The translations under genes and the position numbers were made by a program. A DNA stretch of 61,228 bases from NCBI GenBank assembly GCA_003223245.1, contig QHYI01000158.1, positions 1 to 61,228 of the forward strand. Reading direction: 5' to 3'. Below the pieces are notes generated by a model, which saw only the letters and a list, made by a program, of their open reading frames with translations, did no database searches and was not told the DNA's origin. The DNA is from Acidobacteriota bacterium (GTDB lineage Bacteria > Acidobacteriota > Terriglobia > Acidiferrales > UBA7541). Of the stretch, positions 4,011-19,909 are shown piece after piece (the stretch's first letter is position 1; each line of letters opens with the position of its first letter).

Positions 4011-5093
4011 CTAAGAGACTTGTTGGCGTCGGCGATTCCACCAGATAAGCGGACCCGTGACGGCCATGACTGGAAGCATCAGGCTAGTCACGCAAGCGAG
4101 GATGCGCGTCGGAAGCCCGCCAATATCACCCGTGTGAATTTCACGGTTCCAAAGCTTTACCATGCGAAAGCCGAGAGGCCCTGAACGCGAGTTTAAGTGA
4201 AACACTATGTCGCCGGTGTAGGCATCGATGAAAAGATTTGTGCGTCCGGATGGAGTCCGGTCCTCAGGGTATTTCATGGCAATGCGAACGGGGTTAGCCG
4301 AAAGGAGGATCCACGTTGCGTGTGCCCCTGGCGCTGCTGATTCGGCGATGGAGAGTAGTCGATCAGGGCTAAGCGCGACGGCATTTGCGCTCCAAGGTTG
4401 CACCCGGGGGAAGGGCGGGACATCCACTGAATTTGTGATTCGATTGGCCAACCGCGTCGCTCCATTTTCCCAATGGATGACGAGGGCTGTGATGGCAAAA
4501 ATCATGAGAAACAGCGAAAGGTAAATTCCGAGCGTCTGATGCAACTCGAAGTTAAGCTGTTTGATCTGGCTACGCCAGTTTACTGTCAGCAGCCTGCGCG
4601 GCCACCAGAGAACGACCCCGGAAAGGGATAGAACAAGCAGAAGCACCGCAGCCAAGCTCACAAGCAAGCTTCCGGCGTCTCCCATCATGAGACGGAGATG
4701 AAAACTGTGGACATAGCCTACGAAGTTGTTGTGGTCGGACCCGGTGCCGAGCACGTCCCCGGTGAATGGGTTGAATGCAACATTCAACGGGGCACCTGCG
4801 CCTGGAGCTTTTGATTGAAGGCCAGCTTCCCAAGCGATGTCGTTTCGCGGGGAAATCAAAAATGCAACGACAGCTCGGCCGGGATATTTTTTCTCGAGCC
4901 CAGATTTCATCTCGGTCAATGTCAGGCGCTTTTCGCCCGGCGTCACCCAAGTCATTTGGGGATTCAAGGCGCGGTCAATCTCATCCTCGAAGACCATGAA
5001 ACTGCCTGTGACGCCGGAGAGGATAAGGAATACTCCGGCGATAAGTCCGGCGCAAAGATGAAGGTTAAGCAAAAGCTTTCGCAAACGTGGCAA
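4011..5093 (-). CDS. PepSY-associated membrane protein
   Basis: A 360-residue inner-membrane protein of the PepSY_TM family. It opens with RKLLLNLHLCAGLIAGVFLILSG-type sequence, the usual first membrane helix with a conserved HxxxG-like histidine. A periplasmic PepSY-like loop follows, then a helix at about residues 145-167, another at about 190-210 (YLSLFLMIFAITALV), and a last helix near the C-terminus ending PLIWWNRRRQQ. Family members often accompany TonB siderophore receptors and are proposed to act in ferric-siderophore reduction or peptidase control. No such receptor is adjacent here, so the role is open. It points against ggt and lies exactly between the two copies of the ggt 3'-end repeat. 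Confidence 0.85.
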   Translation of the reverse strand: MPRLRKLLLNLHLCAGLIAGVFLILSGVTGSFMVFEDEIDRALNPQMTWVTPGEKRLTLTEMKSGLEKKYPGRAVVAFLISPRNDIAWEAGLQSKAPGAGAPLNVAFNPFTGDVLGTGSDHNNFVGYVHSFHLRLMMGDAGSLLVSLAAVLLLVLSLSGVVLWWPRRLLTVNWRSQIKQLNFELHQTLGIYLSLFLMIFAITALVIHWENGATRLANRITNSVDVPPFPRVQPWSANAVALSPDRLLSIAESAAPGAHATWILLSANPVRIAMKYPEDRTPSGRTNLFIDAYTGDIVFHLNSRSGPLGFRMVKLWNREIHTGDIGGLPTRILACVTSLMLPVMAVTGPLIWWNRRRQQVS

Positions 5094-14990: not shown

Positions 14991-15458
14991 CTATCTTGCT
15001 AGTTTCTGGCTTTGCCGCTTTTTCCTCAGACTAAGCGCAAGCTGATTCACGCGCCGCTGAATCCCATCGAGGACACGCTGATAAGTCTCCGGATCTTCGC
15101 CGTAAGGATCCTCAACCAGCCACTCTTGCACATTTTTCTGTCCGCGGAAAATTTCTTCGCTGGGTATCCCGGTCATATTGATAATAAGATCCGCCGCTTC
15201 GACAGCTTCTTTGGTGAGAGCATCGGAGGTCAGCCCGTTCGCAAAATATCCGTTCTTCGTCAGCGTCTGTTTTGTGAGTTCCGCAATGTAGCCGAGAGGA
15301 TACAGTCCCGCGCTGGAAGGTTCTATTACATCTGTAGCGTCATAGCGCGCAATTGATTCCGCCATCGGACTTCGACAGGCATTTCCCACACACACGAAGA
15401 GCACCCGAGTGCGTTGGGAGCGGGCAGCTCCCGGCGCAACGCTTTTTTCTTTTTTCAC
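14991..15458 (-). CDS. low-molecular-weight phosphotyrosine phosphatase / arsenate reductase
   Basis: 155 residues. The P-loop is CVGNACRS with C23 and R29 (C-x5-R), near the N-terminus as in all LMW phosphatases and thioredoxin-linked ArsC enzymes. The general-acid aspartate lies in VEDPYGED near residue 118. Cysteines equivalent to the ArsC Cys82/Cys89 redox pair are not evident, which favours a protein phosphatase over an arsenate reductase. Many relatives are still annotated arsC. The start is GTG overlapping the pdxT stop (GTGA, 15455-15458), so translation is coupled to pdxT. Cytoplasmic. Confidence 0.85.
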   Translation of the reverse strand: MKKEKSVAPGAARSQRTRVLFVCVGNACRSPMAESIARYDATDVIEPSSAGLYPLGYIAELTKQTLTKNGYFANGLTSDALTKEAVEAADLIINMTGIPSEEIFRGQKNVQEWLVEDPYGEDPETYQRVLDGIQRRVNQLALSLRKKRQSQKLAR

Positions 15459-16060
15459 GTTGAGGACTTGCCGCCGTTCGCGGACTTCTTTACCCGCGCT
15501 TTGGCCAGGCTGAGAAAATGTTCGTGCACCGTAGTGTCGTCTGTCAATTCCGGATGAAACGTGGCAGCCATGATGTTCTCGTGCTGCACTAACGCGGGCT
15601 TCCCAGCGTATTCCGCGAGAACTTTTACGCTGGGCCCGGCACGTTCAATCACCGGTCCGCGAATGAAGACCATCTCGAGCGGCCCTTTTTTGAGCACCGT
15701 CGGCCCGCTCACCACGTCACTGGCGATTTGACGGCCATACGCGTTGCGCACAACGGTCATGTCCATCAGATTCAGGGAAACCTGCGCGGGATGCTTCACA
15801 TCTTTGGCAAGGAGAATGGCCCCTGCGCACGTCCCGAAAATGGCCCCACCGTGCTCTGCAAATTTCACAATTTTATCGGCCAGACCTTCTTCCTGCAAAA
15901 ACTTCAACTGCGTAGTGCTTTCGCCGCCCGGTAGAACCAGTCCGTCACAGCCGTCGAGATCGGTGGCGGTACGCACTTCCCTGGTCTCCGCGCCGAGTTG
16001 CTGCAACATCGCCGCGTGCGCCTCAAAATCTCCCTGAACCGCCAGAATCCCGATCTTCAC
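15455..16060 (-). CDS. pdxT: pyridoxal 5'-phosphate synthase glutaminase subunit
   Basis: 201 residues from GTG 16060. It opens KIGILAVQGDFEAH, the invariant PdxT start, so the longer reading from 16102 is rejected. It is a class I glutamine amidotransferase with PGGEST (44-49), nucleophile C78 in FGTCAGAILLA and the C-terminal HPE of the triad. It makes ammonia that is channelled to PdxS for vitamin B6 synthesis from ribose 5-phosphate, glyceraldehyde 3-phosphate and glutamine. It follows pdxS by 87 nt on the minus strand and overlaps the phosphatase start. Cytoplasmic 12+12 complex by family knowledge. Confidence 0.96.
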   Translation of the reverse strand: MKIGILAVQGDFEAHAAMLQQLGAETREVRTATDLDGCDGLVLPGGESTTQLKFLQEEGLADKIVKFAEHGGAIFGTCAGAILLAKDVKHPAQVSLNLMDMTVVRNAYGRQIASDVVSGPTVLKKGPLEMVFIRGPVIERAGPSVKVLAEYAGKPALVQHENIMAATFHPELTDDTTVHEHFLSLAKARVKKSANGGKSST

Positions 16061-16147
16061 TTCTCGCCCCACTCTAGATTTTGCTATGGCTCCCGCAAGC
16101 ACAGCGATGCTGCCCCGCGAAAAAAGCTCTTACCAAACAACCCTTCT

Positions 16148-17068
16148 TTACCAGCCGCGCGTTTGCAGCAAATCTTTTTCTGCCAGTTGCCGCACGTCGA
16201 GACCGCGCATGGCCTCGCCAAGTTCCTCGTGTGCTTCGAGCACCGCCATCGGATCTTCAAAGTGCGTAGTCGCTTTTACAATAGCCTTCGCGCGTGCTTC
16301 GGGATCGCTCGACTTGAAAATTCCCGACCCGACAAACACCGCTTCGGCGCCAAGCCTACGCACCAACGCTGCATCCGCTGGCGTGGCGATTCCGCCGGCC
16401 GAAAAATTCGGTACCGGCAGCCTCCTGGTTTTCGCGATTTGACGAACCAGCTCCAATGGCGCGCCCAATTCTTTCGCTTCGCGCATCAACTCATCGTCGC
16501 GCATGGTGGTCAGCTTCTTCATCTGGCTCATGATCGCGCGCATGTGCCGCACCGCTTCCACCACGTTGCCCGAACCCGCTTCGCCCTTCGTTCGAATCAT
16601 CGCCGCGCCTTCCGCAATGCGTCTCAGCGCCTCGCCCAGGTTACGCGCGCCGCAAACGAACGGGACGCGGTAATCGTGCTTCCAAATGTGGTTCTCTTCA
16701 TCGGCGGGCGTCAGCACTTCACTCTCATCAATGAAGTCCACTTCCAGCGCCTGCAAAACCTCGGCCTCGGTGAAATGTCCAATGCGCACTTTGGCCATCA
16801 CCGGAATCGTAACCATGTTCATGATCTCGCGAATCACTTTGATCGACGCCATACGCGCCACGCCACCCTCTTTGCGAATGTCCGATGGCACGCGCTCCAG
16901 CGCCATCACCGCGCAAGCTCCGGCGTTTTCAGCGATCTTGGCCTGCTCCGCGTTCGTGACGTCCATAATCACGCCGCCTTTGAGCATCTCCGCGAGGCCC
17001 ACTTTCACGCGCCATTCATTCGAGCCTTTGCTGCCATTGCCATGGCCATTGGGTTTCTTCACGTCCAT
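16148..17068 (-). CDS. pdxS: pyridoxal 5'-phosphate synthase lyase subunit
   Basis: 306 residues. A (beta/alpha)8 barrel with the highly conserved PdxS blocks [34 protein letters not shown] (first catalytic lysine), [16 protein letters not shown] (second catalytic lysine) and [18 protein letters not shown]. It condenses a pentose phosphate, a triose phosphate and ammonia to pyridoxal 5'-phosphate. GGGAG lies about 8 nt upstream of ATG. A glycine/asparagine-rich tail of about 17 residues precedes the usual N-terminus. Its neighbours are the hotdog thioesterase upstream and pdxT downstream in the same operon. Confidence 0.97.
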
Positions 17069-17130
17069 CTTGCTTCTCCCTTCGGTTTCAAAACTCCCGA
17101 CGGCGTTAAACCGTCAAAATCGTTTACTGG

Positions 17131-17553
17131 CTACTTGGCCGAAATCACCACGAACCGCCCTTTGCCCCTCGCCAAGACTTCTCCGTTTCCATTCCGAATC
17201 TCTCCCGCCAAGAACAGGTTCCGTCCCTGCATTTCGCTCTCACGTCCTTCGACCACAATCTCCTGGTCCACGGCCACGGGCTTCAAATATTCCACGCTTA
17301 ACTCCGCCGTCACGGCGCGAACATCGCGGAACCGGCAAACTTTCCCCATCGCTTCATCCAGCAACAGCGCGATGATTCCGCCGTGCGCAAAGCCTCCGCC
17401 GCCCTGGTATCGCCGGCCCAGCACGAACCGACCCACGATCCTTCGGTTCACGTTGTCCTGTTCGAACGTTAGCTTCATCCCTGCCGCGTTGTCTCCGCCG
17501 CAGCCAAAGCAGGGGTTCGTGGGATTCGGTTCCAGCCTGATGATGTCGCTCAA
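17131..17553 (-). CDS. PaaI-like hotdog-fold thioesterase
   Basis: 140 residues, TTG start at 17551-17553 with AGGAG just upstream. The hotdog signature is GGGGFAHGGIIALLLDEAMG (HGG with the active-site aspartate/glutamate on the long helix), followed by TAELSVEYLKPV. CFGCG near residue 16 is common in the 4HBT/PaaI group with a preceding Cys pair. It probably hydrolyses an acyl-CoA, but its substrate cannot be inferred, and a link to vitamin B6 is not obvious. It sits between the pdxR-like regulator and pdxS, 44 nt after the former. Confidence 0.85.
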   Translation of the reverse strand: MSDIIRLEPNPTNPCFGCGGDNAAGMKLTFEQDNVNRRIVGRFVLGRRYQGGGGFAHGGIIALLLDEAMGKVCRFRDVRAVTAELSVEYLKPVAVDQEIVVEGRESEMQGRNLFLAGEIRNGNGEVLARGKGRFVVISAK

Positions 17554-17597
17554 ATTCTCCTCGCGCCTATTCCGTGCTTACCTCCTTGCTTTTGACC

Positions 17598-19142
17598 TCA
17601 TACCAGTGCCACGCGGCTGCGTTCCGCTCTCCGCACGCCGCGCTGCCGCTTGCGCATCTCCACCTTCAGCATTTCCGCAAGAGTAGCTACACCTCGCGCA
17701 ATTTGCTTCTCATCCAGGCTGGCAAAGCCCAGTCGCAGCGTATTAGGCAGCGGGCTTTGCACGTAGAAGTAGCGACCCGGCGCAAACAGGACGCCCCGCT
17801 CCTTCACGTGAATCAGCAATTCGTTCGCATCGAATCCTGGCGGTAGCTCGAGCCACATGCACATCCCGCCTTCCGGCCGCATCCAGCGGGTCCCTTCCGG
17901 CATATGCTTCCGCAAAGCTTCGTCCACTGCCGCCAGCCGCGAGGCATAAACCTTGCGCATCTTAGCCAGATGCTTGCTGAAAAGTCCGCGGCGCAGAAAC
18001 TCCGCCAGCGTGGCCTGCGCCAGTTGGTCGGTATGCAAATCCGTTGTCTGTTTCACCACGCGCAGCCGTTCTATGGCCTGTGGAGGCGCAACAATCCAAC
18101 CCACGCGCAACCCGGGGAACGCTACTTTCGCAAAGCTGTCGATGTGAATCACCAGATTCGAACGATCCAGTTGCTTCAGCGAGGGAATGCGCTCGTCCCG
18201 CGCGTGCAGCCGCGCGTAAATATGGTCTTCCACCACGGGCACTTGATACCGCCCCGCCAGCTCCAGCAATTTGCGCCGCGAAGCCAGCGGCATCGAAATG
18301 CCCGTGGGATTCTGAAAATCCGGAGTCAGCGTGATCAGCTTCACACGATTTGCCGCAAGAGTCGCTTCGAGCGCCTCCAGGTCCAGTCCCAGCGTCGTTC
18401 CCGGCTCCGCGTGGGTTCGCATCGGCACAGCCAAGCAGCGCGCCCGCGACCCATGGAAAATCGCCACCGCGCCCGGGTAGGTCGGATTTTCCATAATCAC
18501 GGAATCGCCCGGACGCACAAACGCTTTGCTGATCAAATCGAACGATTGCTGGCACCCATCGGTGATGAGCAGATTTTCGTCTCTCGCCGCGATTCCGTCG
18601 TGATGCAGCAGATCCAACAAAGCCGCTTTCAACGGCGCATAGCCATCGGACGGACCCAGGGTCAAAACTTCCCGGCCCTCGCGCCGCAGCACCGCGTTCA
18701 CACAGATTTGCAGTTCCTCAATGGGGAAAAATTCCGGCGCGGGACAAGCCATAACGAAAGACAAAGCGCTGTCAGGCACACCGGCGGTCAGCCGGCTCAG
18801 CACTTCCTCGCCGCGCTCATCGGCAAACAGCAGTTCCCAGCGGATGCTTCCATTGCCATTCAAAACTGGCGGAGCAGGCGGGGTGATCTTCAAACCGTTG
18901 CCATTTCCCTTGATAAACGTCCCGCGGCCCACGTGTCCTTGGATCAATCCTTCCGATTCCAGTTCGGCGTAGGCATTGGCCACGGTGGTTCGGTGCACGC
19001 CGAGCATGGTCGCCAGCTCGCGGCTTGCCGGGATGCGGTCGCCCGGGCGCAAATCACCGGCATGCACCAGGGCGCGAAGTTGATCGCGAAGTTGCACATA
19101 TAGAGGGACATGACTTTGTGGCTGGAGATGAAGTGGCAGCAT
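17598..19142 (-). CDS. MocR-type GntR regulator with aminotransferase-like domain (PdxR-like)
   Basis: 514 residues. The N-terminal GntR winged helix (about 8-78: VPLYVQLRDQLRALVHAGDLRPGDRIPASRELA, HRTTVANAYAELESEGLI) joins through a linker containing GNGNGLKITPPAPPV to a fold-type I aminotransferase domain. The PLP lysine lies in DSFAKVAFPGLRVGW (near residue 330). Known PdxR proteins sense PLP and control pdxST. Here the gene is first in the same operon as pdxS and pdxT, which supports a PdxR role, although the usual arrangement is divergent. The likely operator array is directly upstream (19158-19215). Start ATG is preceded by GAGGGTGAGA. PdxR is an inference from family plus context. Confidence 0.88.
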   Translation of the reverse strand: MLPLHLQPQSHVPLYVQLRDQLRALVHAGDLRPGDRIPASRELATMLGVHRTTVANAYAELESEGLIQGHVGRGTFIKGNGNGLKITPPAPPVLNGNGSIRWELLFADERGEEVLSRLTAGVPDSALSFVMACPAPEFFPIEELQICVNAVLRREGREVLTLGPSDGYAPLKAALLDLLHHDGIAARDENLLITDGCQQSFDLISKAFVRPGDSVIMENPTYPGAVAIFHGSRARCLAVPMRTHAEPGTTLGLDLEALEATLAANRVKLITLTPDFQNPTGISMPLASRRKLLELAGRYQVPVVEDHIYARLHARDERIPSLKQLDRSNLVIHIDSFAKVAFPGLRVGWIVAPPQAIERLRVVKQTTDLHTDQLAQATLAEFLRRGLFSKHLAKMRKVYASRLAAVDEALRKHMPEGTRWMRPEGGMCMWLELPPGFDANELLIHVKERGVLFAPGRYFYVQSPLPNTLRLGFASLDEKQIARGVATLAEMLKVEMRKRQRGVRRAERSRVALV

Positions 19143-19157
19143 TGTCTCTCACCCTCG

Positions 19158-19215
19158 GCCAATTTTAGCAGAAATTGGCCTGCCACAAGAGCCAATTTGT
19201 CTTCGCCATTTTGGC
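19158..19215. promoter_or_regulatory. GCCAATTT operator array and promoter of the pdxR-pdxST operon
   Basis: GCCAATTT (19158-19165) and AAATTGGC (19172-19179) form a perfect 8-bp inverted repeat. A third copy GCCAATTT (19191-19198) lies 33 bp, about three helical turns, from the first, and a partial copy GCCATTTT is at 19205-19212. On the minus strand the inverted repeat contains TGC then TAAAAT, an extended -10, so a bound regulator would cover the promoter. MocR proteins are known to use direct and inverted repeats of this scale. Confidence 0.6.
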
Positions 19216-19333
19216 TGCCATCTGCAGGCGGCAACGCGCCCCCCGTCCCGTGGAGCCAGCCAGGCGGAGAACTGACGAGGTCTGGAACCGCGCCCATTTG
19301 CATTTTGCGCTTCGCGTTTGTAGGCTTTCCGGC

Positions 19334-19909
19334 ATGCCCGGCAAATTCCCTGCCCTGTTGATCCTCCTTTTTCTGGGCGCGGCAATCCCGCTCACGGGCC
19401 AATCGTCGGCTTTCGGCAAAGCCGAACGGATTAACCAGGTCGTTTCGCGCTACCAGAACCTCGGCTACTTCAACGGAGCAATCCTCGTGGCCGACCGCGG
19501 CAAAATCATTTGCTCCAAGGGGGCAGGTAAAGCCAGCTTCGACCACGATATTCCCAACACTCCGCGCACAGAATTCGGTATCGCCTCCATCACTAAGCAG
19601 TTCACTGCCCTGCTGGTCCTTCAGCAAGCTGCCGATGGCAAGATTCTTCTTCAAGGAAGGGTTTCCGATTCTCCCTTGGTACCGCCAAGACTCCGGTAGC
19701 CGCATGATCATTGAGCAACTGCTCTATCACTGTTCCGGTCTGCCGCCCGACTTCGATTCGCCCGAGTTTTCCGCGACGGTCGCAGCCGCACGCCGTTACG
19801 AGCATCAGGAATCCGCGTTCACGGCTTCTCGTCAGGCTCGCTGTACTCCACCGCCGAAGCCCTGTACAAATGGAATAAGGCGCTCTCTAGTCCGAAGTTC
19901 CAGCCCTAG
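19334..19909 (+). pseudogene. serine beta-lactamase-family hydrolase, frameshifted and internally deleted
   Basis: The frame starting at ATG 19334 has a signal peptide, then GYFNGAILVADRGKIICSKGAGKA and the SxxK motif SITK, all typical of class C beta-lactamase-like secreted hydrolases. Near 19670 the frame shifts: the homology continues in another frame as ILPWYRQDSGSRM, then EQLLYHCSGLPPDFDSPEF. Near 19820 it jumps again to GFSSGSLYSTAEALYKWNKAL, a block that normally lies roughly 100 residues further on, and ends at a TAG (19907-19909). The remaining C-terminal domain is missing. An IS transposase gene begins 130 nt downstream, so decay may be linked to that insertion. It is divergent from the pdxR operon. 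Confidence 0.8.

Follow-up and report, generated by a model that had tools for sequence, protein, structure and literature searches.

A cluster of short repeated boxes lies directly in front of the gene for a MocR-type regulator in the 61,228-nt stretch of acidobacterial DNA studied here (the window), and the genes for the two subunits of PLP synthase follow on the same strand. This arrangement raises the question of whether the boxes serve as the operator of the regulator encoded next to them and, if so, in which direction the vitamin B6 genes are controlled. The first-pass annotation had proposed a PLP-sensing autoregulator whose site is built around a perfect inverted repeat.

That a MocR-type regulator gene heads a run with pdxS and pdxT was borne out by domain and family assignments. 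On the minus strand, the order is pdxR, a thioesterase gene, pdxS, pdxT, a low-molecular-weight phosphatase-like gene and a gene for a DtxR/MntR-family regulator. The first four are located as follows:

17598..19142, minus strand: pdxR, encoding a MocR/GntR regulator of 514 amino acids.
17131..17553, minus strand: second gene of the operon, encoding a hotdog-fold thioesterase (4HBT; PF03061).
16148..17068, minus strand: pdxS, PLP synthase lyase subunit (NF003215 / TIGR00343, above cut-off).
15455..16057, minus strand: pdxT, PLP synthase glutaminase subunit (TIGR03800, above cut-off).

PdxR joins a GntR-type winged-helix domain (PF00392; residues 14-77) to a fold-type-I aminotransferase domain (PF00155; residues 153-487) and passes the NCBIfam equivalog model NF052282 (PLP_TF_PdxR) narrowly, with 327.9 bits vs. 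a cut-off of 320. Residue K339, which is part of an SF(A/S)K motif, is invariant in all seven aligned sequences and is aligned with the lysine of the TFSK/SFSK motif in three aminotransferases. In the aminotransferase fold, the lysine at this position holds PLP. The predicted sensing of PLP by PdxR rests on this invariant position and on family membership.

For comparison we used 80 loci from relatives, mostly labeled Acidobacteria, Terriglobia or Candidatus Acidiferrales; the few other labels, e.g., one Bacillota and one Betaproteobacteria bin, look doubtful. The N-terminus was missing from the best match in L092, L127, L130, L131 and L143, leaving 75 loci, and the addition of L001, L038, L041 and L045 gave 79 pdxR upstream regions, 78 of them distinct because L038 duplicates L136. 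Relatives were grouped by PdxR protein identity into near (at least 80%), mid (55 to below 80%) and far (below 55%); L089, a member of the window's clade, falls into the mid group at 79.8%. The group counts given below refer to the 75 sequences in which box 1 (see below) matches at 10 or more of its 15 positions, with L140, L144 and L146 left out.

In every locus in which both genes were found, pdxR and pdxS are co-directional (69/69), as are pdxS and pdxT (63/63), and in 52 of the 69 loci the thioesterase gene separates pdxR from pdxS. The estimated pdxR-pdxS gaps are often short (15 bp in L144, 24 bp in L141 and 33 bp in L132), and exceed 1 kb in L120, L139 and L140. Because the genes are co-directional and the gaps often short, a single promoter probably serves both pdxR and pdxS. 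In the loci of the relatives, too, pdxT is often followed by the phosphatase-like gene and the gene for the DtxR/MntR-family regulator. On the other side of the box cluster, an open reading frame on the plus strand (19334-19699) matches the beta-lactamase family PF00144 only near the start of the profile (positions 16-80 of 329) and is followed by an open reading frame for a 580-amino-acid transposase (PF01609; 20040-21782, plus strand); the former looks like a decayed gene. We therefore discarded a divergently transcribed target gene, since this neighbor is a fragment and the flank above box 1 is unconserved.

The box cluster itself was found where the first-pass annotation had placed it. Exact copies of GCCAATTT are present at 19158-19165 (plus strand), 19172-19179 (minus strand) and 19191-19198 (plus strand), and a copy with one mismatch, GCCATTTT, at 19205-19212. 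The copies at 19158-19165 and 19172-19179 form a perfect 8-bp inverted repeat, and the third exact copy begins 33 bp from the first. Taken singly, the box is mildly enriched (eight occurrences in the window vs. 3.33 expected, a number reached in one of 100 shuffles), while three exact copies within 41 bp did not occur in any of 400 first-order Markov simulations of the window. The cluster is real and beyond chance, although the single box alone is unremarkable. Read in the direction of pdxR, its elements are:

19187..19201, minus strand: box 1, GACAAATTGGCTCTT, with the half-site AAATTGGC at 19191-19198; it abuts the −35 region and is the most conserved element.
19172..19179, plus strand: box 2, the inverted middle box, reading GCCAATTT on the minus strand and lying in the promoter spacer.
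19162..19170, minus strand: predicted extended −10 element, TGcTAAAAT, between boxes 2 and 3.
19158..19165, minus strand: box 3, AAATTGGC, a direct repeat of box 1 at 33 bp that overlaps the −10 region (ATTGG there).
19140..19148, plus strand: box 4, inverted, reading GAGACAATG on the minus strand and overlapping the pdxR start codon.

The four boxes thus alternate in orientation (-> <- -> <-). Box 4, 33 bp from box 2, is imperfect in the window, with ACAA in place of CCAA; on the plus strand it reads CATTGTCTC, one mismatch from the box 1 core ATTGGCTC. For alignment, columns were numbered from the G of GACAAATTGG as column 1, so that the window position equals 19202 minus the column. In this numbering, the cores are TTGG at columns 7-10 (box 1), CCAA at 24-27 (box 2), TTGG at 40-43 (box 3) and ACAA at 57-60 (box 4), the last being found at 58-61 in most mid and far sequences.

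The motif recurs in front of pdxR orthologues of other Acidobacteria, and the proposal thereby withstands the first of the refuting conditions named in the first-pass annotation, a lack of conservation. When the upstream regions of the window and 28 relatives were aligned by protein start, with the motif playing no part in the alignment, box 1 was present in one column block in the window and in 28 of 28 relatives, with GCCAAT (or TCCAAT) and AATTGG at the same places in most of them. Box 1 was matched at 12 or more of 15 positions in 74 of the 79 upstream regions and in six of 3950 Markov-simulated ones; this is the threshold that separates the two sets, since ten of 15 is attained by 76 of the 79 real but also by 435 of the 3950 simulated sequences. 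Its information content is 1.92, 1.65 and 1.59 bits (near, mid and far), against 0.17, 0.11 and 0.32 bits in the flank just upstream; with that flank near random, conservation begins sharply at box 1. The TTGG of box 3, with at most one mismatch and in the exact 33-bp register, was found in 67 of the 75 aligned upstream regions (near 25/26, mid 35/40, far 7/9), and in five mid sequences its best position is one base nearer.

Box 2 behaves differently. An exact CCAA is present in 24 of 26 near sequences but only four of 40 mid and one of nine far sequences, and six upstream regions from relatives at 45-52% protein identity (order/class level) have boxes 1 and 3 and no middle inverted box. In a PdxR tree of 77 rows, built by a quick method without bootstrap and with its long branches flagged, 25 of the 29 box 2 carriers fall into one 27-row clade (SH-aLRT 100). 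The label requires six changes over the whole tree, so that box 2 is mainly, not exclusively, a clade trait. For box 4, a CCAA with no more than one mismatch, at any of three allowed positions, occurs in 26/26 near, 38/40 mid and 6/9 far sequences, and the exact CCAA in only 3/26, 28/40 and 2/9, respectively. Since the exact form is rare in this genus, box 4 appears degenerate there, and its conservation is partly explained by a conserved CAATG start. It seems to be more than start-codon context, because GACAAT or CCAAT keeps its distance from box 3 in L132, L133, L041, L139 and L141, in which the start codon is predicted elsewhere.

The conserved core, as judged from these alignments, is therefore the direct repeat formed by boxes 1 and 3 at 33 bp and not the perfect inverted repeat that the first-pass annotation had taken as the main element. 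The array drawn there holds up as a conserved operator, with two corrections: the true box 4 (19140-19148) had been overlooked, and the copy at 19205-19212, which had been counted as a partial fourth member, was ruled out as part of the operator, as a similar copy occurs in just five of the 78 upstream regions. Some loci deviate from the common layout. In L140, the TTGG pair is spaced at 34 bp; by eye, L144 and L146 hold TTGGC and GCCAA in a different layout, and in L142 (about 4889-4977) the array is expanded, with additional ATTGGCT copies preceding the 33-bp pair at intervals of about 13 bp.

The boxes span the predicted pdxR promoter, from just above the −35 region to the start codon. The extended −10 noted earlier on the minus strand is indeed there (19170-19162), and a TG-extended −10 is common in the near group (20/26), rare in the mid group (2/40) and missing from the far group (0/9). 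The −35 hexamer matches the consensus at three of six positions in the window and at no more than three in 19 of 26 near sequences; it reaches four to five of six in 30 of 40 mid and five of six in seven of nine far sequences. Five of six matches are likewise found for the −10 hexamer in 28 of 40 mid and five of nine far sequences. In a promoter scan of positions 15300-19450 of the window, the predicted pdxR promoter was not among the sites reported; a single promoter-like site was found on the operon strand, at 15899-15870 inside pdxT. An RNA element was rejected as an explanation, since positions 15300-19500 gave no Rfam match at gathering thresholds and the likely leader comprises only about a dozen bases.

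We then asked how specific the site is, using a sequence-only operator model built from 47 of the 78 distinct operators. Across 61 genomes of relatives, the model gave 36 matches at E ≤ 1e-4, one per genome and each directly before pdxR. A pdxR orthologue is present in 37 of these genomes; all 36 whose upstream region is assembled were matched, while in G029 the contig ends inside the gene. The presence side of this co-occurrence is in part circular, 47 of these operators having served to train the model. In the 24 genomes without a pdxR orthologue, there was no operator match (best E 0.0385); among these, a complete pdxS is present in 10 and a pdxS fragment in one. Because the motif is absent from these 10 pdxS-bearing genomes, it tracks pdxR and not pdxST. 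Here, "without pdxR" means no match on the orthologue scale, and some genomes, with or without pdxR, have MocR-like paralogues at about 30% identity. In five genomes of the same genus (G015, G016, G021, G026 and G034), no pdxR orthologue was found and pdxS gave no match either; four of them are 63-86% complete and G034 95%, and B6 synthesis may have been lost or gaps in the assemblies may be responsible.

A search by pattern instead of model, with gaps of 18 to 26 allowed, found sites in 26 of the 61 genomes, 24 of them before pdxR and all of these with a gap of exactly 23; two sites elsewhere had other gaps, and a reversed control pattern gave one match. In a search that covered the window plus 66 of the 80 loci, the model matched before pdxR in 63 of the 67 sources, the exceptions being L129, L144, L145 and L146, and no forward copy of the operator was found before pdxS in the window and the 62 pdxS-holding loci of the 66 searched. 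Nor did any of the 61 genomes show a second site at E ≤ 1e-4 that would point to further regulon members, under strict filters; because only the best candidates per genome were scored (83 in these genomes and 17 in the phylum-wide search described below), weak second sites may have escaped. A search of the window's own genome with the single box (at most two mismatches) gave 14 matches vs. four for a reversed control; the best one outside the operon (L060) has no TTGG partner at 32-34 bp. Farther out, 297 genomes of the phylum yielded five matches at E ≤ 0.01, all before pdxR homologues; one is the site of the window, and for the other four the protein identity is 37-45%. In 38 of the 43 phylum genomes with a pdxR homologue (E ≤ 1e-80) there was no operator match among the 297 searched, and the operator has hence either changed there beyond the reach of the model or is absent.

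Taken with its position over the promoter of its own operon, the site is probably the operator of the PdxR protein encoded immediately downstream. The autoregulator of a vitamin B6 operon proposed earlier thus keeps its putative operator on its own promoter, shared with pdxST and conserved upstream of orthologues, and loses the inverted repeat as the conserved core. As to the direction of control, we favor, with reservations, the reading that PdxR represses its own operon (pdxR, the thioesterase gene and pdxST) with PLP as corepressor. A single PdxR dimer would bind head-to-tail to boxes 1 and 3, which lie on the same strand and 33 bp or about three helical turns apart; boxes 2 and 4, equally 33 bp apart on the opposite strand, would give this clade a further site, offset by about 1.5 turns and interleaved with the first. 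With the boxes covering the promoter from above the −35 region to the start codon, bound PdxR would exclude RNA polymerase and so turn off pdxR, the thioesterase gene and pdxST together. PLP is the most likely corepressor: its synthase is encoded in the operon, and the aminotransferase domain of the regulator is of the PLP type. If a repressor is to mediate feedback by the end product, PLP would have to strengthen its binding, which would close an autogenous loop. The fairly good core promoter of most mid and far relatives fits repression better than the need for an activator. Against a PLP-corepressed repressor stand the PdxRs described in PMC5320631, which have the opposite sign, the poor −35 hexamer of the window, the absence of its pdxR promoter from the promoter scan and the 38 phylum genomes whose pdxR homologue goes unmatched.

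The same operator and the same protein could also work the other way round, with the apo form on the direct repeat activating in positive autoregulation and PLP releasing or rearranging PdxR. Precedent favors such a scheme, as the characterized PdxRs activate pdxST in the apo form, and apo-PdxR prefers direct repeats and PLP-PdxR inverted ones (PMC5320631); the same body of work, however, has known PdxRs repressing the promoter of their own gene (PMC5320631; for group A Streptococcus, PMC11619246). Box 1 abuts the −35 region, a site open to activators, and the near group has a weak −35 hexamer, but box 3 lies on the −10 region and box 4 past the likely transcription start, so that a dimer there would occupy the place of the polymerase, and the promoter of most mid and far relatives is fairly good. 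We regard activation by the apo form as unlikely, if still the strongest competitor.

Distinctly less probable is a division of labor in which PdxR limits only its own synthesis and pdxST is transcribed mainly from another promoter, inside or after pdxR and beyond the reach of PdxR. Autorepression of pdxR is known (PMC5320631), and the thioesterase gene and variable gaps of many loci, including those above 1 kb, would leave room for such a promoter. Yet no operator was found before pdxS in the window and the 62 loci, the sole promoter-like site on the operon strand between 15300 and 19450 is within pdxT, and the very short pdxR-pdxS gaps of L132, L141 and L144, together with the co-directional order in 69 of 69 loci, speak for joint transcription. 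That the boxes belong to some other, unlinked or global regulator, or are simply a conserved core promoter, strikes us as very improbable. The overlap of box 3 with the −10 region would suit the latter view, but box 1 is the most conserved element and lies mostly upstream of the −35 region, and a promoter alone needs no such block. An outside regulator, in turn, is hard to reconcile with the detection of a single site per genome, invariably in front of pdxR, and with the lack of the site in all 24 relatives that have no pdxR orthologue, 10 of them with a whole pdxS.

Repression by PdxR-PLP, the reading we prefer, can be set against the known MocR systems. MocR operators have between two and four boxes, most of which contain TGT or TGG, in direct and/or inverted orientation and at helical-turn spacing, two direct boxes and one inverted box being the commonest layout (PMC5320631). 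The operator studied here follows this rule with TTGG boxes 33 bp apart and inverted boxes; the common mid-group layout (-> -> <-) equals the commonest MocR layout, while the window's own (-> <- -> <-) is absent from the four-box layouts in Table 2 of that article. The four PdxRs described there activate pdxST in the apo form, with PLP acting as anti-activator, and repress the pdxR gene itself (PMC5320631); for group A Streptococcus PdxR, the authors leave open that the PLP-bound form turns into a repressor (PMC11619246).

Corynebacterium glutamicum PdxR likewise is a MocR regulator of pdxST with mixed direct and inverted boxes (PMC5320631), and its box AAAGTGGW(-/T)CTA (Jochmann et al., 2011, quoted in PMC4494728) resembles, by eye, AAATTGGCTCTT of our operator. 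There, however, pdxR and pdxST share an intergenic region from which pdxST is activated and pdxR repressed (PMC5320631); this divergent arrangement around one intergenic operator, a feature of characterized PdxR activators, was not found in any of the 69 loci, in all of which the genes run in the same direction; in the window, the operator lies on the promoter of pdxR. Bacillus clausii PdxR (Tramonti et al., 2015) also has mixed repeats, the direct ones two or three helical turns apart, but is an apo-activator of pdxST with PLP as anti-activator (PMC5320631), whereas repression of the whole operon is predicted here. The mode proposed here is that of PtsJ from Salmonella (Tramonti et al., 2017), a MocR autorepressor of a B6 gene whose repression is enhanced by PLP, although its target is the salvage kinase gene pdxK and not pdxST (PMC6071262). 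PdxR falls far below the cut-off of the PtsJ equivalog model (139.1 bits vs. 573); it may work like PtsJ without being PtsJ.

GabR, from which PdxR differs in sequence, offers a further comparison. In a PDB search, the aminotransferase domain of PdxR is far nearer to 2-aminoadipate-type aminotransferases (4e-75 to 1e-74) than to GabR (E 2e-27), and the GabR model scored 142.2 against a cut-off of 600; some residual enzymatic activity of this domain is possible. The effector of GabR is PLP with GABA. With the GabR protein of Bacillus subtilis, PdxR shares the winged helix-turn-helix and aminotransferase domains, and both have a direct-repeat operator (PMC5320631).

In a literature search, no title on acidobacterial PdxR was among the matches listed, and queries with GCCAATTT, AAATTGGC and ATTGGCTCTT gave no title on B6 control among the matches listed; "Acidobacter" is absent from the main text of PMC5320631. 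Our observations thus describe a predicted vitamin B6 control circuit for a soil phylum that is known here almost only from metagenome bins, with regulator and target probably on one promoter and the operator lying over that promoter. The full proposal, in which acidobacterial PdxR is an autogenous repressor corepressed by PLP, reversed in sign, and the operator of this clade is a four-box element of two interleaved 33-bp sites on opposite strands and helix faces, is put forward tentatively; we would give it slightly less than an even chance. Should PLP be the corepressor, one protein family would regulate these synthase genes in opposite directions in different phyla. With its constant 33-bp direct repeat and inverted boxes that vary between clades, the operator would provide a natural series for studying how MocR dimers read direct and inverted half-sites.
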